DNA from: Spirochaetota bacterium
GTDB lineage: Bacteria > Spirochaetota > UBA4802 > JAFGDQ01
Direction of reading: 5' to 3'
Length of the DNA: 53,178 nucleotides
NCBI GenBank assembly: GCA_034190085.1
Contig: JAXHTS010000074.1
Coordinates: 1-53,178 of the forward strand
The number at the start of each line of letters is the position of its first letter. The stretch's first letter is position 1. Position numbers and translations under genes: made by a program. Under the pieces are notes generated by a model that ran no database searches, had not been told where the DNA came from, and saw only the letters and a list, made by a program, of their open reading frames with translations. Below, piece after piece: positions 25,601 through 48,016 of this stretch.

Positions 25601-28180
25601 CTCAGCTATGTCAATTGTGTTTATTTGTGCAATCTCATTGCCAACTGCATCAATGAGCTGGGGTGAGCTGCTGCTGCTTATATCCGGTTTGTCGCCAGTA
25701 TCATATATATCTGAACCCTCTAATTCATCGAATTTGATATATAAAACATTGTCGTTCGCTATATCGCTTTCAGGTGCTGAGGTGCCATGAGAGAGTATCA
25801 CATTGTCATGTCCAAGGATAAACCAATCAGATTGATTGTCACCTGCGTTGTTTGCTATATAACCAGGGAAGGAGCTGTCTATTATCGTTTCTGAAAATGT
25901 GAGTTTGTAATAATCTATCTTTCCATTATTATCAGTATCCATTGTTAAGGACTCAGTGACGAAAGGTAAAACTCCATCAATAATCAAATCACTTCCATTC
26001 GCGATCGTTTCCTTCCCAGAAAGGGAGAGATTGGCGTCATTGCCGGCATCATCCCTAAGCACGGCTGTGGCATCAAGTGCGATTGCTATTGAATCCAGAT
26101 CACTGCTCTCATCGCCTAATCCGACAGAATAAATCCCTGTAAAGGTGTCAGTTGGAAAACCGCTGGAAGTAATTGAAATCATATCTGATGTATCAAGAAG
26201 GATATTCATCACACCATCTGTTAATGTCACAATCTCGTTCATGGTAACAGTTATATTGATATTTTGTCCTATTCCATAGGCTCCATTCAATGTTGTGGAG
26301 GTAATGGCTGCTATGCTTGGAGCTGTTGCATCCCACGTGAAATTGATGTCATCATATGCGCTGTTTCCGGCTGCATCCATCACAGTTAATCTGATCGTAT
26401 AATCTCCATCCATATCTGCGCTAATTATCGTATCTTCCATAGCAGGATCCCCAAAGACAATATTTCCCGGACCATTCTCCTTCGTCCATGCAAAACTCGC
26501 TATACCGCTTCCGGTTCCGTCTGTACTCGCATTCTGCATCATCGGTGCGTTTGTAATCTGATCAACTCCAGCATCAACCGCAGGATCAGCGGTGTCCCAT
26601 GTGAAGTTGATGTCATCATATGCGCTGTTTCCGGCTGCATCCATCGCAGTTAATCTAATGACATAATCACCATCCGCATCTGCGTTAATCATTGTATCCT
26701 CTGCATTAGCATCGCTAAAAATAATATTCCCTAGCCCGCTCTCCTTTGACCAAGTAAAACCCGCTATACCACTTCCTGTTCCGTCTGTGCTCGCATCCTG
26801 GTTCGACGCAGTGTTAGTCGTTTGATCAACCCCTGCGTCTACTATTGGCGATGTTGCATCATAATTGATGCTGAACTGTAATGCTTCAGCATTTGGATTT
26901 CCCGCAATATCATGCGCTGCGCCTGAAGCCACGTCAACTGTCACAACGCCATCACTACTTGGAGTAATATCTGCTGAGTATTGACTCTGAGATAAAGAAT
27001 TAAAATTATTGGATATGCCATTGCCAACTACAATATCGCTAATGTCAAAATCACTGACATCTTCAGTAAACTCAATCATTATCGTAAATGGCGATGTGTT
27101 GGTTGGATTTAACTCAGGTGATGATATTGTCACTGTCGGCATTGTGCTGTTATATGTGATCGCAAACTGATTTGAGGCTATGTTCAGATTTCCGGCATCA
27201 TCTTGCGCCTTGCCTGCCGGCAGATCAATTGTGACAGCTCCATCTACAATTGGTGTTATCATAGCTGTAAACTGTCTTTCAGAAAACACAGTAAGATTAC
27301 TTGCAGTTCCATTGCCAATGACAAAGTCATTAATTTCAAATCCTAATACATCCTCACTAAAGTCGATTGTTACAGGGAATGAGCTGTTAGTTGGATCTGA
27401 TTGAGATGTGGAAATTGCTACCGTCGGCGGTATGCTGTCATATATGATTATGAAGGGCGATTCTGAGTCATCACCTTCAGATGAGTCCTTGGCTTTCTCA
27501 TTGCCATTTCCAGCTAAATCATGAGCCACGGCTGCAGCAACGCTAACCATAACAGATCCCTCACCCGCCGGCGTTATCTCCGCTGTGTACTGACTTTCGG
27601 ATAAGGATATTAAATTATCAACCACGCCATTATCAACTACTATATCATTCAGTTCAAAGCCATAAACGCCTTCGCTAAAACTAACAGCTATTATAAATGA
27701 GCTGTTAATTGGCCCTGATTCTACTGATCCTATTGTTGCTGTTGGTCTTGTGCCGTCATATATTATCACATACCGTTCACCGGCCTTATTGCCATTGCCC
27801 ATCAGGTCATGTGCAACAGACTCATCTACATCAATTGTCACAGGACCATCGCTTTCAGGCGTTATCTCTAGTGTGTATTGGCTTGGTGAAATTGAAGTGA
27901 AATTATCAGTTGCGCCATTATCAACTTTAATATCATCTGCTTCAAATCCTATGACAGCCTCGCTAAAAACAATTGTCACAATAAAGGGGGATAAATTAAT
28001 GGGGCTACGAGATACAGATGATGTTATCTCCACAGTTGGTTGAATGATATCCGAATTAATTCTTTTATATTTATCCCTCTCATCAATATAGCTATTGAAC
28101 ACATCACCGTTACAATGCACAAGAACAAGGGATAATATGATAAGGATAATGTTTAATATACTTTTTTGAAATCCGTTCAT
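22625..28180 (-). CDS. Giant lipoprotein with Ig-like, PKD-like and propeller-like repeats
   Basis: 1851 residues. C23 in LVLVHC is a relaxed lipobox. Four tandem Ig-like repeats of about 100 residues follow (starting near residues 48, 146, 253 and 350), each beginning P-T-V/A-x-I and containing a FSE-V-GFE-NDI-V-NG block and S-SQYTAEITP. Two PKD-like repeats of 88 residues (near 448 and 536) share a nearly identical stretch. Further Ig/cadherin-like domains run to about residue 1150. The C-terminal 650 residues repeat a KVYIG/TYIGLA/YIYLANGG pattern suggesting a beta-propeller. AAGGAGAG precedes the ATG. A barrel gene lies 82 bases upstream, probably in the same operon. The protein is a likely surface adhesin or fibre; its ligand is unknown. 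Confidence 0.85.
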   Translation of the reverse strand: MNGFQKSILNIILIILSLVLVHCNGDVFNSYIDERDKYKRINSDIIQPTVEITSSVSRSPINLSPFIVTIVFSEAVIGFEADDIKVDNGATDNFTSISPSQYTLEITPESDGPVTIDVDESVAHDLMGNGNKAGERYVIIYDGTRPTATIGSVESGPINSSFIIAVSFSEGVYGFELNDIVVDNGVVDNLISLSESQYTAEITPAGEGSVMVSVAAAVAHDLAGNGNEKAKDSSEGDDSESPFIIIYDSIPPTVAISTSQSDPTNSSFPVTIDFSEDVLGFEINDFVIGNGTASNLTVFSERQFTAMITPIVDGAVTIDLPAGKAQDDAGNLNIASNQFAITYNSTMPTVTISSPELNPTNTSPFTIMIEFTEDVSDFDISDIVVGNGISNNFNSLSQSQYSADITPSSDGVVTVDVASGAAHDIAGNPNAEALQFSINYDATSPIVDAGVDQTTNTASNQDASTDGTGSGIAGFTWSKESGLGNIIFSDANAEDTMINADADGDYVIRLTAMDAAGNSAYDDINFTWDTADPAVDAGVDQITNAPMMQNASTDGTGSGIASFAWTKENGPGNIVFGDPAMEDTIISADMDGDYTIRLTVMDAAGNSAYDDINFTWDATAPSIAAITSTTLNGAYGIGQNINITVTMNEIVTLTDGVMNILLDTSDMISITSSGFPTDTFTGIYSVGLGDESSDLDSIAIALDATAVLRDDAGNDANLSLSGKETIANGSDLIIDGVLPFVTESLTMDTDNNGKIDYYKLTFSETIIDSSFPGYIANNAGDNQSDWFILGHDNVILSHGTSAPESDIANDNVLYIKFDELEGSDIYDTGDKPDISSSSSPQLIDAVGNEIAQINTIDIAESDGASPIITSASGVTGTDVLSINFSEPVDADGSAGGICDETFETLDFLYDNNSGDDASFICGILDSNGCDSIISVILDTNLTNNDIYVDRISAAVDSIYDIEDNPVASYNQVELSGAISPYVLSVFATGDTKLRIIYSEPVNTTQALEVGNYTLSEENDPFGCADINLIDVTQKDADGAVYELTTDAPQCPEVTYKLEVDEDIMDQDDGVLIINPKFGTFLGNEQLKMVAGTCLTLKSMAVIFNKPVMSGFGADSGENIANYKFKGPNDLGDIDTAVRGGIGKENEVTISNINGEDQNGVSYLVIGANGIDGDGFDNGSNVITTTGISPTETLQSAPNDRVFWTGCGDSVDSFDEGPISCDPLGDGSDFGYVTSYEDKVYIGPNKNGNGAVRFEPDGTNPVNISFEFSQDTDGSDVHSNDSSVSGSAPPYVTIGHSGCIENSSDKTDGCGPDNEDGRGVFISTVMDSSEIMLFGGARTPERYGENPYFDYYYYTMDTDTNLNFSYVDLGDITGTVTAGLQSAVIMDSRTYIGLAKRNDTGTTNAPDFGRVSFNSDDATYCATPDNCDATNGDKGERIFINGMDFFGGNIDLMHANYGYYIGVDSMFIFNDHIYLANGGHNFTNRDGGIIRSNSSNPMPCTYIDNGYADCPSDWVEITPRERLEVTFDPNTELYMSNSDDKIYIYDINDNAIENPFRSGTQYWFAQDDLAGETITVPGNVVKIRLDDNGGIFATRAWGYAVTQVKAITSTGFEIDSSPGLESPHDYPKNYNTTLSYTFNYTSVLPVWNNGNSRFSVELPKIYDLIAGDRAFAQWAEYNGRLYVTRTTCTTSGTDTRDEDVHIIPGCNDGTDDNREAQLWKCDPTAGGDVYPENETCESDDWELIDGLSSIMDGITNLGDNENRTLSMVVANGSYLYIGYDNPIDGIQVYRTNVANPTTEDDFERVGTNGLGNPADMKNIFSAISIQQGADYFIYICAGKSGTPVAVYRQKNN

Positions 28181-32955: not shown

Positions 32956-35778
32956 ATGGATTTGCTGAGGAATAAAAAAGTGAGTATAAATGTAGATGTG
33001 AAGGCGTTGTCACTTAGAATATTTTTTAGGATATTAAGGATTGTGCTTTTATGGATACCGGCAACAATAATCATACTGATAATCATAATTCTTCTTGCCT
33101 TAAAGTTTTACCTTTCACCCAAAAGGGTAGAAGGTCTAATAGTGTCAAATTTCAACAAACATTCATATGGCGACATATCATTAAAGGTTAGGGAATTCAG
33201 CCCTTATGGTGGTTTCCTGATCGAAAATATTTTAATCAGAAACGGGGAAGAATTCAGTCATACGAAGTTTTTGGAGATTGAAAGTCTTGTCTTAAGATAT
33301 GGATTCTTCTCAATGCTCATTGGGGATATCCGGTTTGATGAGATTGGCATATATAAACCAAGGATATATTTAACAGAGAAAAATGGTATTTGGAACCCTG
33401 CCCGTCTGATGAAACCAGGGGAGGAAAAACCTGAAAAAGAGGAAGAAGAAAAAATTGAAAAACTTCATGATAAGGGCGCTCCTTTGGATGAGATCAATCT
33501 GCCAATATCAATTGAATTTCTATTTAAATTTATACTGAAAGATCTCAGGCTATATGTTAAGGGGGAGGGGCTCCATTCGTCCATTGAGGGATTGACCCTT
33601 GATGTGGATTTATGGTTGCCTCCATTTAAGCGAATCCCGATGTCCTTGGATGTTGTTTCGCTAATAAACAGAATGAGCCTACAATTAAATCCAAAGGGTG
33701 AAATGGATGTGTCCTTTTATTCAAACGATGCTAAGCTGAATCATCCGCTTATTTTAACATGGAAATTGATCTTTGGCAGAGGGGAAGAGAAAGAGCCAAC
33801 ATTTTCAAGCCTTTTTGTATGCGGTGTAAATAGAGCCCCTGTTCGATATAAGAAGATCCTTCTAACGCCGCTTAATCTTTTAATTTCCTATGACATCTTT
33901 TACCATCCGGTAAGGGATTATCTAAGATTAAATCATCTTAATATTTCATTCCATGATAAGAAGTGGTTCAATCTTGAAGGCGTAATCAGGGATATAACAA
34001 AAAATCAAGAGATTGATATAAGGATGACCGAGAGCATAATCCATCTCGACGATTTATATCCCTATTATCGGAGTATCACCGGAGACAGAATTACACGATT
34101 CAATGGCGATATTTCAATTTTTCCATTTACTATTAGTGGTAATCCCTCAAATCTGGATATTGATGGCAATGTAAATCTTAGGAGGATATGGTATAAAAAT
34201 CTATCCATGGAGGCGACGATTCCACAGCTTGTAATTCCCATATCTCTACATAAAAGGATGAATGATATGGAGATAGCCGTGGGATTACGAATGCCACACC
34301 TCCTTTATTCCTTGGAGAGGAATAAAGGAGGTGATAACGGACTAGCGATGGGTTTGAATATATCATCATACAATAACTTTAAAGAGGTCTCGATAAATAA
34401 GTTTGATCTCAGATTTTATAATCCGGTAGATGAGAGGAATGCGCTCCATGTTGCCCTTGAAGGAGATATAAACCTAAAGCGCGGTATCTCAGGAAGAATA
34501 AGCTTATCAAGGTTTACTTTCCTAAAAGAGCCCCTTCTTGGCATGCTTCCAGGTAATATTAAGACCTCACTTGATTCTGTTCCCTTGAATAAGCCTGTGG
34601 ACATGAATATGAATGTTAATTTATCTATGAAAAGCGGCACAACTGAAGCGGATATGGATATGCTTATAAAAATACCAGATTTTGACATTAATGATTTAAG
34701 GATTAGCGTGGATATTATTCAGGATGACAAGGAGAAAAAAATTGTGTTGAATCGGTTTAACATAGCAAGCAAGTCCAGGGGGCTAAGCATTAGTGCAAAT
34801 GGCGCTGCAGATATTGGAAGATCCCCTTTTTCAGATTCCGACCTTAATCTTCAGGTGAAGATCGATTCCCCTAAAATGAAGCCTGTATACGGACCATGGG
34901 AGACATCAGGGCTCATTCAGCTTGCAGCCCATATGAGTGGGGATTTGATGACTGGCAGGGCTAAGGGTTCATTGCAGATAGACAATTTGTTTGTAAAGAA
35001 TGAAGAGGAGATGATATCGGTGGAGGATCTGAATTTCAACTTCCCCTTTGAATACTATTTTACCCCAGAGAACAAGGGTGTGTCCAGAATACTCCTTGAT
35101 AAGAGTCAGATAATTGATAACGAAAATTTCAAGGAGAGAGAAAATTTTACCATTAAATCGATCAAGGCTAAACATCCGGCAAGGGAGATGTCTTTTGAAT
35201 ATCTCAAAGACTTTGCTGCAACCATGTTTTTCAGGAATAACACCTTTGAGATTGTAAAGCTAAAGGCATATGTTCTCGATGGATCCCTGTATGGGAGGGA
35301 TATTCTCTTCAATCTTGCAGATATGAAGCTTGAGAATATGGAGTATAGATTGATCCTGGATGTGCCCAATGTGGATATTGGAAAGCTGGACGATCCCGAT
35401 CCTCACCATAAAAAGCGAGATGCGGAGCTATCGCTAAATGCGAATTTTGTGGGCAGGGGTGTTGATTTCAGCAAGGAGCTTAACATGAAGGGTTACATCA
35501 ATATCTATAAGATTGGAGAAAAGTTTGCAAACCGTCTTCTCAAGGGGCTTAATACTGAGAAGGGCAAATCCAAACTTGGCATGGCTCAATTTGTCGTGGA
35601 TAACTCAATGGATGTTGAGGGATTTAATTTCAATCTTGATAAGGGTCTGATGTATCCAACTGTAACTTTTTCGAGAAAGGCGATAGGATTTCTCTTCGGC
35701 ATTGAGAATAATCGTGTTAAATATGACAGAATGCCTATTCAGGAATATTTGAGAAGCGTTTCAAAGGGAGATAAATAA
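32956..35778 (+). CDS. AsmA/YdbH-like envelope protein
   Basis: 940 residues with one N-terminal membrane segment (about 27-52) and a long beta-rich periplasmic part. The start has the AsmA family look: LKFYLSPKRVEGLIVSNFN, then GDISLKVREFSPYGGFLIENI and VDNLF/LDDLY repeats throughout. A lysine/glutamate linker (EKPEKEEEEKIEKL) follows the first domain. The C-terminal part (KGYINIYKIGEKFANRLLKGL, then FNFNLDKGLMYPTVTFSR) matches AsmA_2-like ends. Proteins of this kind (YdbH, TamB, YhdP) form a hydrophobic groove that moves phospholipids across the periplasm. It is the first gene of a tightly packed operon; the YdbL-like gene next to it supports a YdbH-type role. Confidence 0.75.
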   Translation: MDLLRNKKVSINVDVKALSLRIFFRILRIVLLWIPATIIILIIIILLALKFYLSPKRVEGLIVSNFNKHSYGDISLKVREFSPYGGFLIENILIRNGEEFSHTKFLEIESLVLRYGFFSMLIGDIRFDEIGIYKPRIYLTEKNGIWNPARLMKPGEEKPEKEEEEKIEKLHDKGAPLDEINLPISIEFLFKFILKDLRLYVKGEGLHSSIEGLTLDVDLWLPPFKRIPMSLDVVSLINRMSLQLNPKGEMDVSFYSNDAKLNHPLILTWKLIFGRGEEKEPTFSSLFVCGVNRAPVRYKKILLTPLNLLISYDIFYHPVRDYLRLNHLNISFHDKKWFNLEGVIRDITKNQEIDIRMTESIIHLDDLYPYYRSITGDRITRFNGDISIFPFTISGNPSNLDIDGNVNLRRIWYKNLSMEATIPQLVIPISLHKRMNDMEIAVGLRMPHLLYSLERNKGGDNGLAMGLNISSYNNFKEVSINKFDLRFYNPVDERNALHVALEGDINLKRGISGRISLSRFTFLKEPLLGMLPGNIKTSLDSVPLNKPVDMNMNVNLSMKSGTTEADMDMLIKIPDFDINDLRISVDIIQDDKEKKIVLNRFNIASKSRGLSISANGAADIGRSPFSDSDLNLQVKIDSPKMKPVYGPWETSGLIQLAAHMSGDLMTGRAKGSLQIDNLFVKNEEEMISVEDLNFNFPFEYYFTPENKGVSRILLDKSQIIDNENFKERENFTIKSIKAKHPAREMSFEYLKDFAATMFFRNNTFEIVKLKAYVLDGSLYGRDILFNLADMKLENMEYRLILDVPNVDIGKLDDPDPHHKKRDAELSLNANFVGRGVDFSKELNMKGYINIYKIGEKFANRLLKGLNTEKGKSKLGMAQFVVDNSMDVEGFNFNLDKGLMYPTVTFSRKAIGFLFGIENNRVKYDRMPIQEYLRSVSKGDK

Positions 35779-36392
35779 TGAATTCTTTAAGAATATATAT
35801 CGTTTCGTTTTTCCTTTCTTCATTCATATTCTCAGGGTGTTCCTCTAATATCCCTATACTAAGGGATATTCCGAGCTGCTGTCTAATATCCCCCCCGGAT
35901 ATTCATCTTACTGGGGAAAAGACAGTGGTTGAACGTCAGATTGTAGGTGAATATAGAGAACTCGAGAAGGATGCATGGGTAATCTCATCAGTAAAAACCA
36001 ATATTCAAAAATCAAAGGGTACTTACATCGCCGGGGGTGATAGGCAGATATTACTGGCGCTGAAGATAAGGGAATTTCATGAGGACAAGATCAGGGGATA
36101 TAAAGGCGAGGGTGCAATTGGAGAGAAGAATAATGGCTTCGTCAAATATATGCGAAATCCTAAATATGATGGAGACAGGAATTTAAAGACTATTCTTACA
36201 AGGGTTATTAATGAGGAGAACAGGGCTAGGAAAATCATCTTTGCGAGAACCCTAAAAAGGTCAGGAATAAAAGAGCCAAGCGAGAAAGAGATAGAGGCCT
36301 TTGGCAGAATTTTTGCAGAGGAGCAAAGAGCGCTTGCAAAAAAGAATGATCTTATCCAGAACAATTCTGGGAAATGGATTAGAAAGAGATGA
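35778..36392 (+). CDS. Lipoprotein with YdbL-type DUF1318 domain
   Basis: 204 residues. Its ATG shares one base with the stop of the AsmA-like gene. C21 in FIFSGC is a canonical lipobox. After a linker comes SPPDIHLTGEKTVVERQIVG and LEKDAWVISSVKTN. The last 100 residues match DUF1318/YdbL: KGEGAIGEKNNGFVKY, VINEENRARKIIFARTLKRSGI, EIEAFGRIFAEEQRALAKKND and a NNSGKWI end. In E. coli, YdbL is a small periplasmic partner of YdbH together with the lipoprotein YnbE. Here the lipoprotein and DUF1318 features are on one chain. Its stop overlaps the ATG of the giant gene (ATGA), so translation is probably coupled. Confidence 0.8.
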   Translation: MNSLRIYIVSFFLSSFIFSGCSSNIPILRDIPSCCLISPPDIHLTGEKTVVERQIVGEYRELEKDAWVISSVKTNIQKSKGTYIAGGDRQILLALKIREFHEDKIRGYKGEGAIGEKNNGFVKYMRNPKYDGDRNLKTILTRVINEENRARKIIFARTLKRSGIKEPSEKEIEAFGRIFAEEQRALAKKNDLIQNNSGKWIRKR

Positions 36393-39300
36393 AGATAAAA
36401 AGCATATTTAAGTTTCTGTTGCTTCTGATTATACCTATCACCATTGCTTGTGATGAGAAGATGAAGCATGATATTCTATTCAATTATTACAAGATACTCA
36501 AAAAGGAATACAAGTTTGTTGGAAAGATTGTACCTGTTACTATTGGGCAGTCAATAGAGATAGATGGAGTCTTTACAAGGGATGGATCATATTTTTTCTA
36601 TTCCTCAGACAGGGAAAGAGGGAATTATGATATATATCTGAGATCCCTGACAGATATAACCACGGTGAGAATTACGAGTCATGCGTCAAAGGACATATCC
36701 CCTGCTATCTCTCCCAATGGGAAATATCTTGCCTTCATTTCTCAGAGGGAGGATCCTGAGGGTGATATATATGTTGTAAAGGTTAAACCAAAAAGGATTA
36801 TTGAGGATGCCAAGAAAACTAAAACAGAAGTGCCATCCCTTGATCCATTCGTAAATAATATAACCCAGTTTCAGGACCCAGCATCAAAGACCATTAAGAT
36901 AATTAAAGACGCTTCTCCGACATGGTCGCCGGACAGCAATAGTATTGCTTTCTCCTCAGTAAGGGATGGATTGGAAAACATTTGGCTGATACATCGAAAG
37001 GGGAAGAATCTGATACAGATTACCAAAAAAGGAGGCATGTACCCGCGCTTTTCTGAGGATGGCAGGTCTATTATCTATATTTCTTATAGGAACAAGAAAA
37101 GCAATGGGGATGTATATATTAAGGATCTTGCCACAGGAAAGGAGAGAAGGGTAACTGATACCGGATGGATTGAACTATACCCATCATTTCTGGGAAATAG
37201 TGATGAAATAATCTATACGCTTATCGACAGGGATACGAATAATGATGGCAAGATTGATCTACAGGATAACTCTACCATCTATTATAAGAATCTAGGTTTG
37301 GGTGAGGAATACCCCCTTACCCTATACTCAACATCCTCCTTTGCTCCAAGATGGTCCCATCTCTTTAATCTGCCTGATAAGAAGGATTATGAGGAGGTGG
37401 TAGTCTTTTCCGATCAGGTTGGACAGAATATAAATCTCAATATTATTCCTAAAGATGGCATCATCCCAAATCGTGGAAGCGCCAGCAGACAATACAATCT
37501 GGCGGGTAGATATCTTGATGAGTATGATGATATGGAAAGGTATCTCTTCTGCCTTGAAAGGGTTTATCACTTCTTCGGAAGGAGAAAGGATGTCGATTCG
37601 ATTATCTTTGTTTCAAAGGCTCTATTGGATGCGGCAAAAAAATATAAAGAATTGGGTAACCTTGAAAAGGCAGAGGGGTTGAAATCCCTCTTAATGTCAT
37701 TATCAAGGAACAAAAATGATTTCAGATATATCACATCGCAATATCTTGAGAATATCCTTTCCGGAAAGTCTGCCCAAGGGATACTGTTAAACACGATTGA
37801 GAGGCTTGGGAATGACAAGAAGGGGGGAGGCTATATTCCCTATCTCATGGAGGAGCTTGGCGATGAGTATTATAGACTTGGAAGAAGAGAGGATGCAGTT
37901 CGGACTTATAGCAAGATCAATAAAGAATATCCCAAATATAAGAGAGCGCTGCATATACATTTGAGATTGGGAAGTTTAACCTACAAATCCCTTCAAAGGG
38001 AGATCTCTCCTTCATTGCTTAAAGTCTTGGGGTCATCTAATATTGACCTAAAGAATGAGACAATCAACAGATTGATATTCATCTTTGACAAAGAGAAAAA
38101 CCCGAGAAGGAGGATTTCTATTGCTCAGGGGATGCTAAAGAGATATGGGGATAAAAAAAATCTCCCCGCATTGATCGAATTTATCCTGGGGAAAACCTAC
38201 ATGGAGATGGGTGATTTAAGGAGTGCGGCGTCACATCTTCATGAGTCCCTGGATCTTGTCAGAAGGGTTGACCTTTTATTCTACAAATCAAATTATCTTT
38301 TGGGACGTATTGCAGAGAGGGAGAAGGGACTCATTGATGCAGAAAGGCATTATTTTCAGATAGCGAGATGGTATCAACTGCGGTGGAAGCAGTCGAGCAT
38401 TACTGCTGTGGTTAATAAACTGATAGAATACTATGAGGAGAGTGGTGAAAGAGCCGAGATCTCAGGCAATTTTTACGAGGCGATGATGCTATATAAGAGG
38501 TATGTTGAGATTTTAACATATCTTCATTTGATAAAGAGATTTGAGGATATATATAATGAGCAAGCGGCTAGAGCGCATGTGTTATACATTGATGCCTATT
38601 CCTCATGGAAGGGGGAGGATGTTAGCAGGCTGAGAGAATTAGAGAAGGAATATCTTAAAAGATTGCCGATAGCCAGAATGGATTTCGATAAGGCTCACAT
38701 CTATGGTTTGGGATACATTTACACAAAGATGGCGTTGTCGCATGACGATGGAGGTTTTTCGCTTATATCAGGGATAAGGGGCATTGTGAAAAGCGATATA
38801 GATGGGATGATGGATAATTTCAGTAAGGCAATAGATCAGATTGAATGGGCGCTCTTTATCGATGATACCTTTATTGATCCATATATTCTGAAGGGATGGA
38901 TATATCAATTTGTGGATTTGCAAAGGGTAATGGATGAGAAGAAGACAGGGGGGAAGAATGGTGAGATGTTTAGCGAATTCTTTCCCGAATATCTCTGGGA
39001 GAGCAATATCTCAATCTATGAGAAGGCTTTGAATACCTGCGATGAGGCTATGTATCCTGAGAAGGAGGGGAACCTGCACCTAAACATAGCCAATACATAT
39101 TTTTTACTTACAAACTACCCAAAAGCGCTTCATCATTATGAGCTTGTGAAAAAGTTCAAGGGGAGTTTTAACTCAAAGGTTGAGGAGGCTCTCCTATACT
39201 ATCACTTGGGGTATTGTTATTGGCAGGAAGACCAGATTGCCAGGGCACGTGAGGAGATGCGCAGGACTCTCTATATCTATGAAACCCTTGCCTCGGGCAA

Positions 39301-42300
39301 GATCAGGAGATACAGGATTCAGATATTTCCCCTATATAGATTTTTTGCTCTCTTTAGCAGAACAGAGGGAAGATATGATGATGCAATAAAATGGTATAAT
39401 AAAATCCTAAAACATTCAGAAGCATATAAAATTGAGATCGATAGAGCCAGATACATGCAGGAGATCGCATATTGTTATAAGGCAATGGGTCAAGTTGAAG
39501 ATTCTCTATTTTTTTTAAAAAATGCTGAAGCGCTTTTAAAACACTATAAGGATGATGAGAGGGGGTATAAATTGAGATGGAGGATTTTCGGATTCGGCCC
39601 CCTTCATTTCTGGGATCTTGGCCCTGATAACGCTATTATAGGAGAGAATAAGATATACACTGAATTGGATACACTCAGTAAGAGGCTTTTAAATCTATCC
39701 CTCAGGTTGGACATCTCTCTTGACAAAGGGGAATACTATAAGGCTATTGAGTATTATGAAAGGAGGCTCAGTCTTCTAAAAGGCAGGGATAATGAGGTAG
39801 ATCATGAGATGAAGATAAAGGCCTTGAACAATATCGGGTATTGCTATTTTAGGTTGAGTAGATATGTTGAAGCCAGGGAATATTTTAATAGAGCGTGGGA
39901 CTACGCAGCTGATTCTGATGTGGATAACCAGGAGGGCATATTTACCTCTATTATGAACATGTCCAACCTTTATGCATTTCTATTAGAGAACAATATCGAA
40001 TCTTTAGAGGAGCCCATTAGGGAGATTGAGCTATTAACATCTAGGATCAGCGAGTATAGGACAAATTATGAAAAGAAGAGATTTAACCAGGAGCTGGATA
40101 TATTAATAGACCTTGCGAAGGCGCAGGGAAGAGGGGTAAGGGATGAGGAGATAGAGACAATTAGAAATAGGATATCCAAGGATGGAGCGGCTAAATACCA
40201 TAAGCTGAACATCGTTATGGGAATGCTCAAGTACCTTAAGGCAGAGATGTTGTTTAATAGAGGGATTGATATAGCTGCTGATACGAAGAGGAAACGGATT
40301 GAAGGCTCATTAAAAATCCTCAGGATAAATAGGAACATATTCAATCTATATAGGGATGCAACAAAAAGGTTTGAGAATGCGCTAATGCAGGCTGATGAGA
40401 AACAATCGAAAAGGCTGAGGTTAAAGCTGTTGCTGAGCCTGTCGGTCTGTCAGGAAAGGATTGGATTCCTGGATGAGGCCCTTGAGTCTTTATTTAGGGC
40501 CAAGGAAATTGGTGAAAACTATATGTACAAGGACCTCCTTTGGCGTGTCCACTATAGGTTAGCCGGTTTTATGGAAAAACATGGGATGGAGATTGAGGGC
40601 GAGGGCTTTAGAGAAATAGCTGAAGAATATTACAGGAAGGCCGCGGGTATTGTTGAGGATATTCCATATTTTTTCACTGAAAGCATATACAGGGTTAAAG
40701 ACCTATATGATGACTATATTGGTCTTTTGATGGATAAAAAAAATTGGGACCGGGTTTTAGCGCTTTCAGAAAAGAGGTATGCGATATTAAGATTATTTGC
40801 CGTTGTCCGATCCTCGCCTGGATTTCATAATGATATGGACAGGGAGTATTTCTCAGTTTACTTGGGAATTGTGAAGGAAATTAATTCCCTACAGAATAAT
40901 ATCTCAGGAGTATTGGAGAAAGGCGACCCCCCCAACTCAAAAAGGATTTTGAATATCACAAGTGAGTTACAGAAAAAGAGAAGAGAGTATTCTGATTTTG
41001 TGAAAACCCTTCAAAAGGAAAGGCCGCTATTTGCCTCATTTATATCCATATCTGAGAGTGAAATCCCTGAGTATGATGATAATGTTGTGATATATAAATT
41101 TATTGAGAGGAATGGCGAGTATTATGCTTGGAGGATCATCACTGGCAGATTCGAGTTTAGAAGGCTAACCGCAGAGGCAAGCGGCTCTGTGCCCAATATG
41201 ATTTCCAAATTTTTAGGCGAAGATGAGAGGGAGCGGCGCCATAGATTCATTGTTCTGAATGAGGCATCCCTAAAACTGTTTAGAGAGTTTGGTAACAGAA
41301 TGGATATTCCTCCATTTATGTTTGCGCCATCAGTTGATAGAGTCAAATACTTCCTGTCATCAAATAATATTTCCATGGGAAGCCTCTACTATAACGGAAG
41401 GGGGTTGAAGGGGAGATTATCGAAACTATCCGATTTTAAAAATATCAGTGTGATAGAAAGGGATGATGGGAAGCTTGAATTATCAAGCTACTCGATACTA
41501 GTTGATCAAAGAGATGAATTAAATCCCTTCCTTCTCTTTACAAAAAGGCTTGAACCCACCCTAATCGTAAAAGGGATAAGCGATATTGATTTAGACTATA
41601 TAAATCTTTTAATTGAATCATCTCTATACTCTGGTGTTAATACCATATGTCTTTTCATTGACATGAATTTGGATTCGGTTTCTAAGGCATTGCAGATTTC
41701 ACTGAGACAGCCACTTGATGAGACACAAAAAGAGCTTGGGCCTGTTAGCAATGTAATGGCCCTAGGATTTAAGGGTTTTGAGAAAACAGATAGATACCAG
41801 GGATTGCTTGAGGTTAAGGATCGGGAGTATAATAAATTTCTTCAGGAATTGAAAAACGGGGATGTTGCACGGGCGGGAATGCATCTAAACAGATGGCGTG
41901 GGTATGGTGATGGGAAGACTAATGAGGAGATATTATATTATTTAGGTCTTGCGGAAGTTCAAGCATTGAAGGGCGAGTTAGAAAATTCGCATACCCATTT
42001 AATCAAGGCTCTGCAATTGTCCAGGGACATATCCTCTGATTTATATACGAGAGCCCTATCATATAGGATTTTACTTCTTTTACAAAGCGGCGCTATTGCC
42101 AGTGCTAAAGCATTAATAAATGAGAGTGATGATCTTCCTGGTTTTTCTAATTCTATTGACTGCTCCATTTATGAATCGATAATAGCTCTAGCTATTGATG
42201 GAATAGAACCGCATGCTGATGAGTTTGGCAATGCAGGTTTTAGGGGTGTTTCGTTTATCCCAATCAATAAACTAAGGTTATTGCTAGCGGAGTATCTATA

Positions 42301-44311
42301 TCTCTTTGAATACATGGGAAAGGCCAGGGAAGTGCTATCTCATTGGGTAAAAGATTATCCTGAATCGGATCAAAAGATTTTGAAAGCAGGATGCATGATG
42401 GGCAAACCCACTGATTCGCTACCATTCTCCAAAAGAGCAAAGGCTATTGTTAGCCTTCAGGGGGATGCTATGAAGATGGAGGATTTGGGGAATAGAGCCA
42501 TAATACTAGCTGAAGGGGATGGCAAGTATGATTACTTCTCTCCATATCCAGTCATGTATACATTAAGGATACTTTTGAATAATAACAATTTCAAGGCAGC
42601 GCTATCATTTATTAATAATATAAACATCAATGAGATTTATGATAATTCATTATGGATGGATGTGATTCCACTTCTCTCAATCATTAAGAGGATATACCTC
42701 TCGGAAGAGAGATACGAGGATGTGCTAAGCATGGAAAAGATGATAGAGATGCTATCACATAGACTAGGCATATCTTCCCTTTTAAAGAATGTTCTTTATG
42801 ATGAGGGAGTGAATTTATCACTACTTGGCAGAGATAGGGAATCTTACCAAGCAGCTATTAGGGGAATAGAGTTAACAAATAAAGAAGATAACCTCTTTTT
42901 AAAGTATCAGCTTCTCTTGATGGAGAATGAGATGCGGCTTGGTAAGATTGATGAGGCCCTTGCAAGGGGAGAGGGGATAAAATCGAATTATGATAATGAA
43001 TATCCCTTTGTTCTTGATCTATTATTGTCACGAATAGAATTGTTGAAGATTTTAAAGGAGGGAAAGGTCTCTGAACATGAATGGGAAAGGGTGGAAGCCC
43101 TCATTATAAGGGCATTGGATCTTTTGGACAGAAATCCAGGTATGTTAAAGGAGTTTAATAGAATAGACTTAATATCTGAGTGTCTGGATTTTCTGATATC
43201 CTATAAGATGAGCAGGATGGATTATTTGAAGGCCTTAGTGTATGCTGAGGTCAAGAAGCAGATTTATGTCAGGTTGAAAATGCCTGTGAAGGCTTCACCA
43301 ATGATCCCTAAAGGGATAAAAGAGGAGTTTAGGAATATGGTTGAGGAAGATAGGGGGGAAAGGTTTATAGGCCTTCTGCAGAGATACCCGGGATTACAGC
43401 TAAACTCCTTAATCAAGATGCTCCCTGTGGAGGAATATCAAAAAAAAATGCCAGAGGACTTCATAACGCTATATCTTGTAAAGAATGGTATGGATATACT
43501 TGCTTGGATTATTACAAAATCATTTATTGAACCCTTGAGAATTAAACAAGGGTATAGGGATGTTAGCAAGATTTTACCAAGATATAGGGAGCGCCTAACT
43601 AAATTTGAGAATACAGTGAAAATATCTGAGGAGTTGTTCAGCATTTTCAAGCCCATCAGCAAATACTACCAGGGAAAGGGTGGTATTATATTTATTACTG
43701 ATAAGGAGCTTGAACAAGTGCCTTTTGAGATTATGGGGGAAAAGACTTTATTGGTGGAATCCCACAGTATTGTCTATATTTCATCAATAATTTCTGCGCT
43801 TAGAAGCTACAAATCCAGGAACAGGATAGTAAGTATATTGAATTTGCAGCAAAGAGATATATTTTATGAGCTTGAAGAGGTGGCAATTAAAGAATCGGGA
43901 ATTAACTATAGAATAACTGACTCCGTTAACAGCGGAATTGCGCACATTCAGCATCCACTTTTATATAATTCAATGAGGGGAGAGTTTTATTTTGGAGATA
44001 AATTAATCAATAGCCTACTTGCAGGGGTTGAGATAGTCTATATTCCATCGATTGATTTTACCCATCGAGTGAGTTGCTCCAAATTTGCAATTGCAAGCTC
44101 CCAGGAGGGTGTAAGAGGATTGATAATAAATGATGCTGAACTACATGATGTTAATAATGCGATATTTATCGATAACTTGTACAGTGAAATAAATAGAGAA
44201 TCGAGCCTAATTAGAGCCTTTGAACACGCCAAATACTCAATAAGAGCCAATAATCGATATAAACATCCAGCGTATTGGGCAGGTATAAGGCTCTATTTAA
44301 ATGGCTTATAA
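36389..44311 (+). CDS. Giant lipoprotein: TolB-like propeller, TPRs, two degenerate CHAT domains
   Basis: 2640 residues. C21 in LLIIPITIAC is the predicted lipidation site. Residues about 45-350 contain PD40/TolB-type blades (YFFYSSDRERGNYDIYL, SPAISPNGKYLAFIS, SPTWSPDSNSIAFSS). TPR repeats run from about 380 to 1500 and 1800 to 2300. Two CHAT-like (caspase-HetF-associated) domains lie at about 1540-1790 and 2340-2640. In the second, a His-rich HIQHP sits where HxxxH is expected, but the catalytic Cys position reads IPSID, so protease activity is unlikely. In the first, neither His nor Cys is evident. The start overlaps the preceding stop (ATGA) and the FecR gene follows 63 bases later. The protein is probably an envelope scaffold or sensor; no described homologue is known to me. 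Confidence 0.8.
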   Translation: MKIKSIFKFLLLLIIPITIACDEKMKHDILFNYYKILKKEYKFVGKIVPVTIGQSIEIDGVFTRDGSYFFYSSDRERGNYDIYLRSLTDITTVRITSHASKDISPAISPNGKYLAFISQREDPEGDIYVVKVKPKRIIEDAKKTKTEVPSLDPFVNNITQFQDPASKTIKIIKDASPTWSPDSNSIAFSSVRDGLENIWLIHRKGKNLIQITKKGGMYPRFSEDGRSIIYISYRNKKSNGDVYIKDLATGKERRVTDTGWIELYPSFLGNSDEIIYTLIDRDTNNDGKIDLQDNSTIYYKNLGLGEEYPLTLYSTSSFAPRWSHLFNLPDKKDYEEVVVFSDQVGQNINLNIIPKDGIIPNRGSASRQYNLAGRYLDEYDDMERYLFCLERVYHFFGRRKDVDSIIFVSKALLDAAKKYKELGNLEKAEGLKSLLMSLSRNKNDFRYITSQYLENILSGKSAQGILLNTIERLGNDKKGGGYIPYLMEELGDEYYRLGRREDAVRTYSKINKEYPKYKRALHIHLRLGSLTYKSLQREISPSLLKVLGSSNIDLKNETINRLIFIFDKEKNPRRRISIAQGMLKRYGDKKNLPALIEFILGKTYMEMGDLRSAASHLHESLDLVRRVDLLFYKSNYLLGRIAEREKGLIDAERHYFQIARWYQLRWKQSSITAVVNKLIEYYEESGERAEISGNFYEAMMLYKRYVEILTYLHLIKRFEDIYNEQAARAHVLYIDAYSSWKGEDVSRLRELEKEYLKRLPIARMDFDKAHIYGLGYIYTKMALSHDDGGFSLISGIRGIVKSDIDGMMDNFSKAIDQIEWALFIDDTFIDPYILKGWIYQFVDLQRVMDEKKTGGKNGEMFSEFFPEYLWESNISIYEKALNTCDEAMYPEKEGNLHLNIANTYFLLTNYPKALHHYELVKKFKGSFNSKVEEALLYYHLGYCYWQEDQIARAREEMRRTLYIYETLASGKIRRYRIQIFPLYRFFALFSRTEGRYDDAIKWYNKILKHSEAYKIEIDRARYMQEIAYCYKAMGQVEDSLFFLKNAEALLKHYKDDERGYKLRWRIFGFGPLHFWDLGPDNAIIGENKIYTELDTLSKRLLNLSLRLDISLDKGEYYKAIEYYERRLSLLKGRDNEVDHEMKIKALNNIGYCYFRLSRYVEAREYFNRAWDYAADSDVDNQEGIFTSIMNMSNLYAFLLENNIESLEEPIREIELLTSRISEYRTNYEKKRFNQELDILIDLAKAQGRGVRDEEIETIRNRISKDGAAKYHKLNIVMGMLKYLKAEMLFNRGIDIAADTKRKRIEGSLKILRINRNIFNLYRDATKRFENALMQADEKQSKRLRLKLLLSLSVCQERIGFLDEALESLFRAKEIGENYMYKDLLWRVHYRLAGFMEKHGMEIEGEGFREIAEEYYRKAAGIVEDIPYFFTESIYRVKDLYDDYIGLLMDKKNWDRVLALSEKRYAILRLFAVVRSSPGFHNDMDREYFSVYLGIVKEINSLQNNISGVLEKGDPPNSKRILNITSELQKKRREYSDFVKTLQKERPLFASFISISESEIPEYDDNVVIYKFIERNGEYYAWRIITGRFEFRRLTAEASGSVPNMISKFLGEDERERRHRFIVLNEASLKLFREFGNRMDIPPFMFAPSVDRVKYFLSSNNISMGSLYYNGRGLKGRLSKLSDFKNISVIERDDGKLELSSYSILVDQRDELNPFLLFTKRLEPTLIVKGISDIDLDYINLLIESSLYSGVNTICLFIDMNLDSVSKALQISLRQPLDETQKELGPVSNVMALGFKGFEKTDRYQGLLEVKDREYNKFLQELKNGDVARAGMHLNRWRGYGDGKTNEEILYYLGLAEVQALKGELENSHTHLIKALQLSRDISSDLYTRALSYRILLLLQSGAIASAKALINESDDLPGFSNSIDCSIYESIIALAIDGIEPHADEFGNAGFRGVSFIPINKLRLLLAEYLYLFEYMGKAREVLSHWVKDYPESDQKILKAGCMMGKPTDSLPFSKRAKAIVSLQGDAMKMEDLGNRAIILAEGDGKYDYFSPYPVMYTLRILLNNNNFKAALSFINNININEIYDNSLWMDVIPLLSIIKRIYLSEERYEDVLSMEKMIEMLSHRLGISSLLKNVLYDEGVNLSLLGRDRESYQAAIRGIELTNKEDNLFLKYQLLLMENEMRLGKIDEALARGEGIKSNYDNEYPFVLDLLLSRIELLKILKEGKVSEHEWERVEALIIRALDLLDRNPGMLKEFNRIDLISECLDFLISYKMSRMDYLKALVYAEVKKQIYVRLKMPVKASPMIPKGIKEEFRNMVEEDRGERFIGLLQRYPGLQLNSLIKMLPVEEYQKKMPEDFITLYLVKNGMDILAWIITKSFIEPLRIKQGYRDVSKILPRYRERLTKFENTVKISEELFSIFKPISKYYQGKGGIIFITDKELEQVPFEIMGEKTLLVESHSIVYISSIISALRSYKSRNRIVSILNLQQRDIFYELEEVAIKESGINYRITDSVNSGIAHIQHPLLYNSMRGEFYFGDKLINSLLAGVEIVYIPSIDFTHRVSCSKFAIASSQEGVRGLIINDAELHDVNNAIFIDNLYSEINRESSLIRAFEHAKYSIRANNRYKHPAYWAGIRLYLNGL

Positions 44312-44374
44312 AATTGACTTGAAAATAATCTTCTAATTTACTATAGTAATTACAAATATTATGGAGGACAACTC

Positions 44375-45451
44375 ATGTTAATATTCAAAATCTTTAATAT
44401 AAGGAAAATTTTTACTTATTTAATCATGTTTTTTGTTTTTATTGTACTATTCTCTGTTTCAGGATTTTCCCTTGAAATTTCATTTCTTGTTGGAAAGGTT
44501 GATCTCATCAGAAACGGCAAGAAAATTGGGGCTGGTATAGGCATACAGGTTGTTTCAGGGGATATGATAATTACAGGAAAGGGGGGATTGGTCGTTTTAT
44601 CTTATACCGATGGCAGTGAAATAAAAGTATTTGAGACCAGCAAGATTAGGATCGGCAGTAAGAATATCAGGTATTCTGATAACCCCTCAGTGATTTCTGG
44701 TGTTGTGAGGGGTAAATTTGCAAAATTATTAAAGGGTTCAGAGCGCAAAGTATATTCTCCAACTACTGTCTGTTCAGTCAGAGGGACAGATTTTCTTGTC
44801 GGTGTGAGCGATGGAATCGATTCTAAAGTAGAGTTGAGCGAAGGGACGCTTGATCTTTATAATCCCTATGGGAATGTAAACCTAAAGGGGAAACAAAATG
44901 CTGACATAGGAGTGGCGGATGTCCCCAGGAAAAAGACCGGAAGAGGAATGCCAATCAAAGTCTGGAAAAATCAGAGGGATGAGGAATTCATCAGGGATCC
45001 TGAAAGCAAGAGTAATAAACTGAATTCTTATATTGAATTTTTTAATACCAGAAGCGCAGATATTACGGATGACATCGTTTTTTTTGATAAAAATCAGACT
45101 AACGCGCAAACAATGGAAAAGAAGCGGTTAGAAGAAACAAATATTGAGCTTGAGGATCTGCAAATCAGTGTGACAGATGATATGATTCTTAATGAGGGAA
45201 CAAATTCATCCCTTGATAACATTTTAAATAAATTTCAAAAGGATAAGGGAGAAATTTACAATACCTTTTTAGGTATCAAAGAGGAATCAAATAAGGTACT
45301 TGAGCAGCAACGAAGAAATTACGAAGCAATAAAGAGTGTCAGAGAAGCATACCAAAAGGCGTATAATGATATTATAGGAAAGCATAAAGACTATATGAAT
45401 AAGTTGAAGGGAGGCTTCAATAAGAGTGATTATATTCCAAAGAAGGAATAG
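44375..45451 (+). CDS. FecR-domain secreted protein
   Basis: 358 residues with a signal peptide or anchor (hydrophobic to about residue 35, ending GFSLEIS). A FecR-like domain follows at about 38-165: VGKVDLIRNGKKIGAGIGIQ, SGDMIITGKGG, VVLSYTDGSEIKVFE and YSPTTVCSVRGTDFLVGVSDG. The C-terminal 150 residues are charged and likely helical or coiled coil (KRLEETNIELEDLQ, ILNKFQKDKGEIYNTFLGIKEESNKVLEQQR). FecR domains outside iron signalling are common in spirochaetes and deltaproteobacteria and are thought to be structural. GGAGG precedes the ATG. It is the last gene of the four-gene envelope group. Confidence 0.85.
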   Translation: MLIFKIFNIRKIFTYLIMFFVFIVLFSVSGFSLEISFLVGKVDLIRNGKKIGAGIGIQVVSGDMIITGKGGLVVLSYTDGSEIKVFETSKIRIGSKNIRYSDNPSVISGVVRGKFAKLLKGSERKVYSPTTVCSVRGTDFLVGVSDGIDSKVELSEGTLDLYNPYGNVNLKGKQNADIGVADVPRKKTGRGMPIKVWKNQRDEEFIRDPESKSNKLNSYIEFFNTRSADITDDIVFFDKNQTNAQTMEKKRLEETNIELEDLQISVTDDMILNEGTNSSLDNILNKFQKDKGEIYNTFLGIKEESNKVLEQQRRNYEAIKSVREAYQKAYNDIIGKHKDYMNKLKGGFNKSDYIPKKE

Positions 45452-45706: not shown

Positions 45707-46537
45707 TTAAACAAGAGCTTTACCAGTAATTTCAAAGTTTTCAGTTAATCTTGATCTCAATTCGCTTTCATACTCGTGAAAATTATTAAGGAAATGAAAG
45801 CAAGCATTTTTAAATTCAAGGAAAGTATCATAATATTTATTGTAATGAATAACCTTATGAAGCAATTTCCACAATCATTCAATTAGGTTCAAGTTTGGTG
45901 AGTATGGTGGCAAAAAAACTGTCACGATCTTTGAATTTTTTACATAACCTTTTACTAATTTTGAACGGTAGTAACGAGCATTATCGATAATAACAAAAGG
46001 CTGTTCTGCTAATGGATTTGCTTCTTCAATTTGTTGAAATAACGCAATAGTAGATTCTGAATTAATACGTTCGTCTTCCCAATGAATAAAATTGAAATCT
46101 TCAATATTTATTGCGCCATTTATATTGATACATTTTCTACCTGTATTGCTTGGGATTTCTTTTGTTGTTCCTTTTTTTATCCAGCCATTAGCAGGCATGG
46201 AATTATGTTGAGGATGAACACCATCCATAAAATATATACGATCGTGTTCACCTTTAAGATCTTTGATCTTTTTATATATCTCGTTAATAAATTTTTCTTG
46301 TACCAAAGGATTCGCTTTGCCTGGAACACGTTTTGTTTTCTTGTATACAAAACCAAGTCTATGAAGTAATGAAACGATACTTTTCGGACTATATACTATG
46401 TTAAATGTTTCTTTGACATATTCGACAATACTTTTAGCATCTGAATAAATACTATTTTCTAAATGTTTGCTGAGCTCAGCTTGTTGACCTTGAGATAAAT
46501 AACTGGATTTACCTTTATAATTGTTCTTAAGTAAGGT
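45707..46537 (-). pseudogene. IS630-family transposase with nonsense codon, 5' end lost
   Basis: The frame (236 residues from the first Met at 46585, homologous from about 46537) contains the IS630 DDE core: YFMDGVHPQHNSMPANGW (first Asp), a PFVIIDNARYY block (second Asp) and PPYSPNLNLIE (Glu). The codon right after LIE is TGA (45875-45877) where relatives have Arg, probably CGA to TGA. Reading on through it gives LWKLLHKVIHYNKYYDTF to a TAA at 45707, the normal end. The upstream part, which should encode the HTH domain (about 60 residues as in the copy at 1-318), is replaced by the IS1182-like element at 46538. The copy is therefore dead twice over. Confidence 0.85.
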
Positions 46538-46555
46538 TTCCTGAAAAAGTCGAAA
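46538..46555. repeat. Left terminal inverted repeat of the IS1182-like element
   Basis: TTCCTGAAAAAGTCGAAA; matches the right end in reverse complement with one mismatch. Confidence 0.75.
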
Positions 46556-46651
46556 GTCCTGAAGAGTTGAAATTTTTTGTGACATAATGTTTGCATTAAG
46601 TGCAAGGAAAATGTAAGAATTAGCTCAAAACCCTTGCACACGAAGGAACGG

Positions 46652-48016
46652 ATGTATAGAAGGAAGCCATTAGGACAGCTTGAATTTGAAGATTTTTATC
46701 TTCCCTTTGGAGGTAAGCTCTGAGGTGACAACAGGTGGGTGAAGCTTTCAAAAGTGATTTCATGGGATGAGATAGAAGGATTATATTCAGATAACTTTTC
46801 AAAGCGGATGGGAACGCCTACCAAGCCTTCAAGGATGGCGCTTGGAGCATTGACAATAAAAGAGCGTTGTGGATTTACAGATGATTATCCTTTTGATCCA
46901 TCAATGATGATACATTTTAGGAAGCGTTTTAATCGTTATATGCTGAATGTGATAAACGAGTTAATAATAGATAATAAGAGGAAGGGGTGTGATCCACAAG
47001 TCACCAATTTAGATGTTGATGATGGGTGTGAGGATACCGAGGATAATGAAGGTAAATTGATACTTGATGCTACTTGCACGCCATTAGATATAAGATACCC
47101 AACGGATTTATCACTATTAAATGATGCCCGTGAGAAGCTTGAAATAATAATAGATATTTTACATTAACCGTTTAAGGGTAAGGAGAAGAAACCACGTACA
47201 TAAAGGGAGAGAGCCAGGAAAGATTACTTGAAGACAGCAAAGAAACGCAAGAAGACATATAAAGAGATAAGAAAGTCAAAAGGTAAGCAGTTACGGTATA
47301 TATTTCGTGATTTACGATATATTGAGGATCTTGTATCAAGGAGTTCGTTAGAGTTATTATCTAAAAGACAACATAAAGATTTACTTGTGATACATGAATT
47401 ATACAGACAGCAGAAGGAGATGTATGATAGAAGAGAGAATCGCATAGATGCCCGCATAGTAAGCATATCACAGCCTCATATATGTCCTATAGTGAGAGGC
47501 AAAGCATCGTCTCCGACTGAGTTTGGGGCGAAGATCTCACTATCGCTGGTTGATGGTTATGCAAGGCTTGAAGAATTAAGTTGGGATAATTACAATGAAT
47601 CATTAACATTGATAGATCACTTAGAAAGATATAGAGAAAGCTATGGTTGTTATCCTGAATCATTACAGGTGGATAGTATATACAGAACGAGAAAAAATAG
47701 ATCATTTTGTAAAAACCATGGCATAAGGATTTCCGGACCACCTCTTGGTCGTCCTCGCAAAGAGGACAAGTTGGGCAAAAATTTAAAGCATGAAAAACAG
47801 GATATGAGAGATCGAGTAGCCATTGAAGGTAAGATTGGAGAAGGCTAGAGACGTTATGGGTTATCCAGGATAATGGCAAAGTTACCTGAGACAAGCGAAG
47901 CAGGTATATGTATTACCATTTTGGTGATGAATCTTGAAAGGAAGCTTAGGCTTCTTTTTGCACAAATTTTGTTGAGGCGATTTAAACGTTATCAATGGCT
48001 AAGGTTAGCCGTATAA
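46652..48016 (+). pseudogene. IS1182-like transposase with four in-frame stops
   Basis: A single 454-codon frame from ATG 46652 (MYRRKPLGQLEFEDFYLPF) to TAA 48014. It is interrupted by TGA at 46721, TAA at 47165, TAA at 47201 and TAG at 47846, without any frameshift. The translation around the stops stays typical of IS1182/IS5-superfamily transposases: WVKLSKVISWDEIEGLY, FDPSMMIHFRKRF, LILDATCTPLDIRYPTDLSLLN, KDYLKTAKKRKKTYKEIRK, PIVRGKASSPTEFGAK, and RRYGLSRIMAKLPETSEA near the end. About 25 residues normally found between IKERCG and DDYPFDP seem to be missing, an in-frame deletion. The stops of all three kinds rule out recoding of one codon; this is decay. Confidence 0.8.

Follow-up and report, generated by a model that had tools for sequence, protein, structure and literature searches.

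Genes and features of the locus

The DNA analysed here is a stretch of 53 178 nucleotides (the window) from contig JAXHTS010000074.1 of assembly GCA_034190085.1, a Spirochaetota bacterium whose genome is called G000 below. Four consecutive genes on its forward strand code for an AsmA-superfamily protein, a lipoprotein of the DUF1318 (YdbL) family, a giant secreted lipoprotein (here, with its orthologues, the giant) and a secreted FecR-domain protein. The first three constitute a conserved set, or module, which we interpret as a putative lipid-transport system of the cell envelope. The features of the locus are listed in table 1.

Table 1. Genes, domains and motifs at the module locus (positions in the window; aa, amino acids).
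Feature	Position	Strand	Basis and remarks
AsmA-superfamily protein, 940 aa	32956-35778	+	Pfam/NCBIfam, AlphaFold; putative intermembrane lipid bridge with a long beta-groove
Predicted N-terminal inner-membrane helix of AsmA protein, residues 18-52	33007-33111	+	AlphaFold model
Beta-groove of AsmA protein, residues 73-907, strands nearly throughout	33172-35676	+	AlphaFold model, Foldseek
DUF1318 (YdbL-family) lipoprotein, 204 aa	35778-36392	+	Pfam, hhalign
Lipobox cysteine of DUF1318 lipoprotein, FSGC, residue 21	35838-35840	+	C21 conserved in ≥ 90% of 23 orthologues
Conserved N-terminal segment of DUF1318 lipoprotein, residues 33-67, SC..I.PP.I.LTGEKT.IERQIVGDYRELEKDAW	35874-35978	+	Orthologue alignment; proposed YnbE stand-in
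DUF1318/YdbL domain, residues 104-203	36087-36386	+	Pfam, hhalign
Giant secreted lipoprotein, 2640 aa	36389-44311	+	Domain searches, orthologues
Lipoprotein signal peptide of giant, ITIAC, residues 1-21	36389-36451	+	Not kept in all orthologues
TolB-like PD40 beta-propeller of giant, about residues 48-345	36530-37423	+	Domain searches; best-conserved region
TPR/helical repeats of giant, about residues 365-1540	37481-41008	+	Domain search
First alpha/beta domain of giant, residues 1565-1793	41081-41767	+	Model; strand/helix order like CHAT, without sequence support
C-terminal degenerate CHAT domain of giant, residues 2358-2637	43460-44299	+	Pfam, model; no catalytic His-Gly or Cys motif
Secreted FecR-domain protein, 358 aa	44375-45451	+	Domain search; frequent neighbour in the order, outside the core

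The first-pass annotation had joined all four genes in one envelope operon. Its reading frames are reproduced in coordinates, common strand and spacing: the AsmA and DUF1318 genes overlap by one base (TAATG), the DUF1318 and giant genes overlap by four (ATGA), and 63 bases separate the giant from the FecR gene. The operon itself has to be shortened. Strong orthologues of the FecR protein are found in the module-less genomes G001, G012, G026 and G043, and in families outside the order of the window genome the FecR gene is not adjacent to the set. FecR is therefore rejected as a fourth component, and the core is the three genes for the AsmA protein, DUF1318 and the giant.

Exact junctions were measured at 25 loci from three branches of the phylum, and both are kept as overlapping or abutting. 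The AsmA-DUF1318 spacing is -4 to +4 bases at 24 of these loci and 43 bases at the remaining one; that between DUF1318 and the giant is -4 to +6 bases, or a longer apparent overlap that hangs on the choice of start codon. The arrangement of the set is kept across the whole order.

Distribution and linkage of the three genes

Within the order we compared 46 genomes, the window's own and 45 relatives. All three genes are present in 36 of them, contiguous in 35, and the other 10 carry none. The set is split by a contig end in G030, and some other giants are cut in the same manner. Weak AsmA matches in G031 and G034 proved to be other, shorter AsmA proteins.

For the phylum, we searched 178 Spirochaetota genomes with profiles built from the proteins of the order plus a few distant orthologues (thresholds E ≤ 1e-40 for the giant, 1e-6 for DUF1318 and 1e-20 for the AsmA protein). 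The giant is detected in 79 genomes, DUF1318 in 79 and the AsmA protein in 83. Giant and DUF1318 occur together in 76 genomes, each occurs alone in three, and 96 have neither; every one of the 79 giant genomes has the AsmA protein. The Fisher p-values of co-occurrence, about 1e-42 to 1e-46, are inflated by the relatedness of the genomes; at genus level they are about 1e-23 to 1e-25, on the assumption, implied by the genome lists, that the genera with giant and DUF1318 all fall within the 41 of 96 genera that have the AsmA protein. Two of the three genomes in which a giant but no DUF1318 was matched are less than 84% complete. Three genomes of family f34 (G124, G101 and G120), which have the pair without a giant above threshold, were counted as module-positive; G124 alone was inspected, and carries a giant of 2610 amino acids beside DUF1318.

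The physical linkage varies between families. The contiguous triplet is found in the order of the window genome, in f34 and in two f11 genomes. In the Brachyspira family (Brachyspiraceae, f15), AsmA and DUF1318 are adjacent and the giant lies elsewhere, and in the f22 genomes seen all three genes are separate. DUF1318 behaves as a hub, adjoining AsmA in some genomes and the giant rather than AsmA in others (G078, G072 and G116, the last two with further DUF1318 copies). Although unlinked, the giant is retained in Brachyspira murdochii 56-150T (G146) and Turneriella parva HT (G095), while the Brachyspiraceae G084 and G091, in whose relatives it is unlinked, have none of the three genes. That giant and AsmA/DUF1318 pair are retained together or absent together even where they are unlinked is the strongest argument for their working together. 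The association had been proposed from the window alone; within the phylum, the giant and the pair do co-occur.

Some f11 genomes (L125-L129; G132, G072) carry two giants and two DUF1318 genes, which suggests duplicated modules.

The AsmA-superfamily protein

Matches of residues 30-165 of the window protein to AsmA (PF05170, E 5e-5) and DUF748 (PF05359, E 1.5e-5) are both below gathering scores; a distant orthologue in G053 exceeds the AsmA cut-off (E 1.8e-15). For NF047499 of NCBIfam, the LIC_11026 family, the window protein scores 323.6 bits (E 2.6e-96) against a curated cut-off of 325. It is a clear LIC_11026 homologue that falls just below this cut-off. The gene LIC11030, also considered, is listed as a cell-shape protein (COG1664) and is unrelated.

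The AlphaFold model (predicted local distance difference test score, pLDDT, 84) has one membrane helix followed by near-continuous strands up to residue 907. Its best Foldseek match in the PDB is the bridge-like lipid-transfer protein LPD-3 (E 2.4e-5, probability 0.92), and the next is ApoB100. A long repeating beta-groove behind an N-terminal helix, as predicted here, fits the AsmA superfamily and the bridge-like lipid-transfer proteins.

The DUF1318 lipoprotein and the absence of YnbE

The lipoprotein call of the initial annotation holds, with a Pfam match above cut-off (37.1 bits against 27) and a conserved lipobox cysteine; all 23 orthologues match Pfam DUF1318. The domain aligns with Escherichia coli YdbL in hhalign (probability 95%, E 3e-8) and matches the solved YdbL structure 28oj at E 0.005. 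A scan of genome contigs for DUF1318 returned 26 loci, 25 titled as metagenome-assembled genomes of spirochaetes and one as 'uncultured bacterium'; none of the titles names another phylum.

A strongly conserved segment sits between the lipid-anchored cysteine and the DUF1318 domain. YnbE (PF13617) was detected in none of the 178 Spirochaetota genomes, while the E. coli and Caulobacter positive controls were detected. Because YnbE is absent and a further gene would not fit into the tight junctions, we propose by analogy that the N-terminal segment may stand in for YnbE.

The giant protein

The giant had been described as a CHAT lipoprotein. A weak C-terminal CHAT fold and the lipobox of the window copy agree with this description; the CHAT domain is degenerate, however, and most of the protein is propeller and helical repeats. 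The domain scores of the whole protein are 85 bits for PD40, several TPR families, and 25.6 bits for CHAT against a cut-off of 24. Taken in isolation, the C-terminal domain scores 33.2 bits against CHAT PF12770 (cut-off 24), with matches in 14 of 18 orthologues. Neither a conserved His-Gly nor a Ser-Ala-Cys motif is found in the alignment of giant orthologues, and with the catalytic residues absent an active CHAT protease is rejected. Conservation is best over the first 1400 residues, which comprise the propeller and the TPRs.

In a model of residues 1445-2640 (pLDDT 87), two alpha/beta domains flank a stretch of helical repeats. The top Foldseek matches of this model include separase and Csx29, the TPR-CHAT protease of Craspase, with low template-modelling (TM) scores over its whole length. 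The first alpha/beta domain resembles CHAT in the order of its secondary structures; the sequence gives no support for a second CHAT domain here (hhalign probability 3.7%, no Pfam CHAT match). A lipobox is present in most orthologues. The signal peptide is instead of the ordinary type in G002, G008 and G009, so lipidation of the giant, judged from these sequences, is apparently not essential.

Shorter giants without the C-terminal CHAT part occur in f4 (about 1785 amino acids; L065 and L072, G005 and G014) and in G017 (L074; 1429 amino acids, with an in-frame TAA in the match). A giant of 11,060 amino acids in G041 is an artefact of a run of N.

TamB and lipid A in relation to the module

Outside f15, TamB (PF04357) is above cut-off in one of 55 module-positive and 61 of 94 module-negative genomes. 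In the order of the window genome it is found only in G012 and G026, both without the module, and PF04357 has no match anywhere in G000. Since module and TamB nearly exclude each other outside Brachyspiraceae, the distribution suggests that the module replaces TamB in most of the lineages that carry it.

A link to lipopolysaccharide is rejected from the pattern of LpxC, which is absent from 19 of the 22 module-positive genomes sampled in the order, many LpxC-positive genomes having no module. Among the sampled members of the order LpxC is seen only in G000-G003, and lipid A synthesis therefore seems to have been lost in most of the order.

Comparison with known systems

A close parallel is the YdbH-YnbE-YdbL set of E. 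coli, which likewise has AsmA-superfamily and DUF1318/YdbL genes in one cluster, a lipoprotein component and tight junctions. The spirochaete set differs from it in having no separate YnbE, a DUF1318 protein that carries the lipid anchor and, in addition, the conserved N-terminal segment, a third protein of 2400-2700 amino acids, and an AsmA protein without a significant match to YdbH. The LIC_11026 family, a hypothetical equivalog of Leptospira, resembles the window AsmA protein in sequence, as its score indicates; its entry has neither an assigned function nor named partner genes.

TamA-TamB shares with the module an AsmA-superfamily bridge and an outer-membrane partner, in addition to the complementary distribution. 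Unlike TamA, which was not searched for, the module's partners are lipoproteins or secreted repeat proteins and not a beta-barrel. Csx29 and separase have the same succession of a TPR array and CHAT (Foldseek E 1e-8 to 1e-6), whereas the giant is secreted, is far longer than Csx29, carries a TolB-like propeller and has no catalytic His/Cys. TolB of the Tol-Pal system is also a periplasmic PD40 beta-propeller; the giant scores 110.6 bits for it, far under the cut-off of 343, and its propeller is fused to a giant repeat protein.

Neighbouring genes and other features of the window

The FecR protein scores 31.2 bits in Pfam (cut-off 24), and about half of the module-positive genomes of the order have an orthologue of it close to the set. 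No extracytoplasmic function sigma factor, such as would accompany a FecR anti-sigma regulator, is encoded among the neighbouring genes in the window. Directly downstream of the FecR gene, at 45875-47848, there are transposase fragments of two kinds (HTH_33/DDE_3; DUF772 with DDE_Tnp_1_2). In several relatives (L066, L070, L071, L064 and others) a SpoIIE-type phosphatase gene, with a receiver domain in L066, follows the giant. Promoter and terminator scans of the DNA were at chance level, and Rfam gave no match.

Farther away, on the reverse strand, the window codes for an 1851-amino-acid Big_12/PKD Ig-like repeat protein (22625-28180), which contains a 264-bp tandem repeat (26331-26830; 1.9 copies, 78% identity), a TPR array fused to a Mrr-type restriction-endonuclease-like domain (8064-9425), and a LytB/IspH protein of 576 amino acids (12202-13932) whose Pfam match spans residues 4-276 only and leaves its second half unassigned.

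Discussion

In E. coli, outer-membrane lipid homeostasis is served redundantly by the bridges YhdP, TamB and YdbH (PMC8593681), and a passage of PMC11784454 citing Kumar et al. 2024 states that YdbH functions together with the lipoprotein YnbE. On these grounds we favour, by a little over even chances, a reading of the three proteins as a Spirochaetota envelope module in which a lipid bridge has a lipoprotein as its partner and the giant as an accessory. The AsmA protein would be anchored in the inner membrane through its N-terminal helix and reach towards the outer membrane, and lipids, most likely phospholipids, would travel along its hydrophobic beta-groove. The DUF1318 lipoprotein would be its dedicated partner: at the outer membrane its conserved N-terminal segment may attach to the bridge's C-terminal end in the manner of YnbE on YdbH, and the YdbL domain may chaperone or control this contact. 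The giant propeller-TPR-pseudoCHAT protein would bind the pair, probably via the lipoprotein; its role as a scaffold or regulator, in the periplasm or on the side of the outer membrane, is a guess. In most lineages having the module, it would stand in for TamB. The full version of this scheme, a trans-envelope lipid conduit that replaces TamB in many spirochaetes, unites the roles of YnbE and YdbL in one lipoprotein and has an obligate propeller-TPR-pseudoCHAT subunit of 2300-2700 amino acids, is more tentative, and we give it somewhat less than an even chance.

The first-pass annotation had already coupled a bridge pair to the giant. This idea is strongly supported by the conserved adjacency and the matching phylogenetic profiles, and the near-exclusion of TamB and the predicted fold strengthen it further. 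The four-gene unit finds no support; nor does an active CHAT peptidase or, in comparison with the E. coli sequence, a specific identity with YdbH.

Several observations weigh against the lipid bridge. The Foldseek TM-scores of the AsmA model are low (0.14), and profile comparison with single E. coli sequences of YdbH, TamB, YhdP and AsmA gave nothing significant. The N-terminus of DUF1318 has no hhalign or Pfam match to YnbE, so homology is not supported and only the analogy is retained. Brachyspiraceae carry TamB and the module together, and several module-less genomes of the order also have no detectable TamB. The co-occurrence p-values overstate independence, the genomes being related. Finally, the module is not the sole candidate bridge: shorter AsmA-family proteins of about 520 and 700 amino acids are present in G000 and in module-less relatives, and because they occur in the same genome redundancy with them is likely.

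The main rival holds that the module moves or assembles proteins, such as outer-membrane proteins or surface lipoproteins, in the manner of the translocation and assembly module (TAM) or of GspN, an AsmA-like protein; the giant would then be a receptor or chaperone. TamB has protein-assembly roles, GspN is linked to lipoprotein transport to the cell surface in PMC12802150, the TolB-like propeller and TPRs of the giant are protein-binding folds, and the near-exclusion of TamB fits protein transport equally well. However, LPD-3 and ApoB100, which the AsmA model matches best in structure, are lipid proteins, and DUF1318/YdbL comes from a set connected with lipid homeostasis of the outer membrane (PMC8593681). 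We regard protein transport as unlikely, if the least so of the alternatives.

Less probable again is that the giant scaffolds envelope proteases or peptidoglycan enzymes, like LbcA or NlpI, and that the flux of lipids along the AsmA bridge does no more than regulate it. It is indeed built of repeats and a dead peptidase-like domain, and the LbcA-CtpA complex of Pseudomonas responds to the levels of an AsmA protein (PMC12569750); but no recurrent protease or peptidoglycan hydrolase gene lies beside the giant in the loci examined, where most neighbours were not individually annotated.

We consider it improbable that the giant is a stress sensor whose propeller or CHAT domain reads lipid or protein damage and signals inward, in the order through a downstream response regulator-SpoIIE phosphatase. 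A receiver-SpoIIE phosphatase gene does lie between the giant and FecR in several relatives, and DdvA, a transmembrane anti-sigma factor, is among the Foldseek matches of the C-terminal half of the giant. The window locus has no such phosphatase gene, though, so the core does not need one; the giant has no predicted cytoplasmic part, and the DdvA match may rest on repeats alone. A chance neighbourhood without functional link, which the behaviour of FecR does resemble, is already contradicted for the three-gene core: its overlaps are kept in several families, and the genes co-occur even where they are unlinked and are missing together.

The route of phospholipids to the outer membrane is a recent question, and most work on it concerns Proteobacteria. 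Leptospira, Brachyspira, Treponema and Borrelia all belong to Spirochaetota; part of this phylum appears to be without TamB, and most spirochaetes with the module lack it. No description of the three-gene set was found in the literature searched, within which the module, real and conserved, is apparently undescribed; it is best filed with the AsmA-type lipid bridges. Deeply separated lineages of the phylum keep this specific set together, whether or not their genomes have lipid A genes, and its cultured carriers include T. parva and B. murdochii. It also offers a likely role for the hypothetical NCBIfam family LIC_11026.

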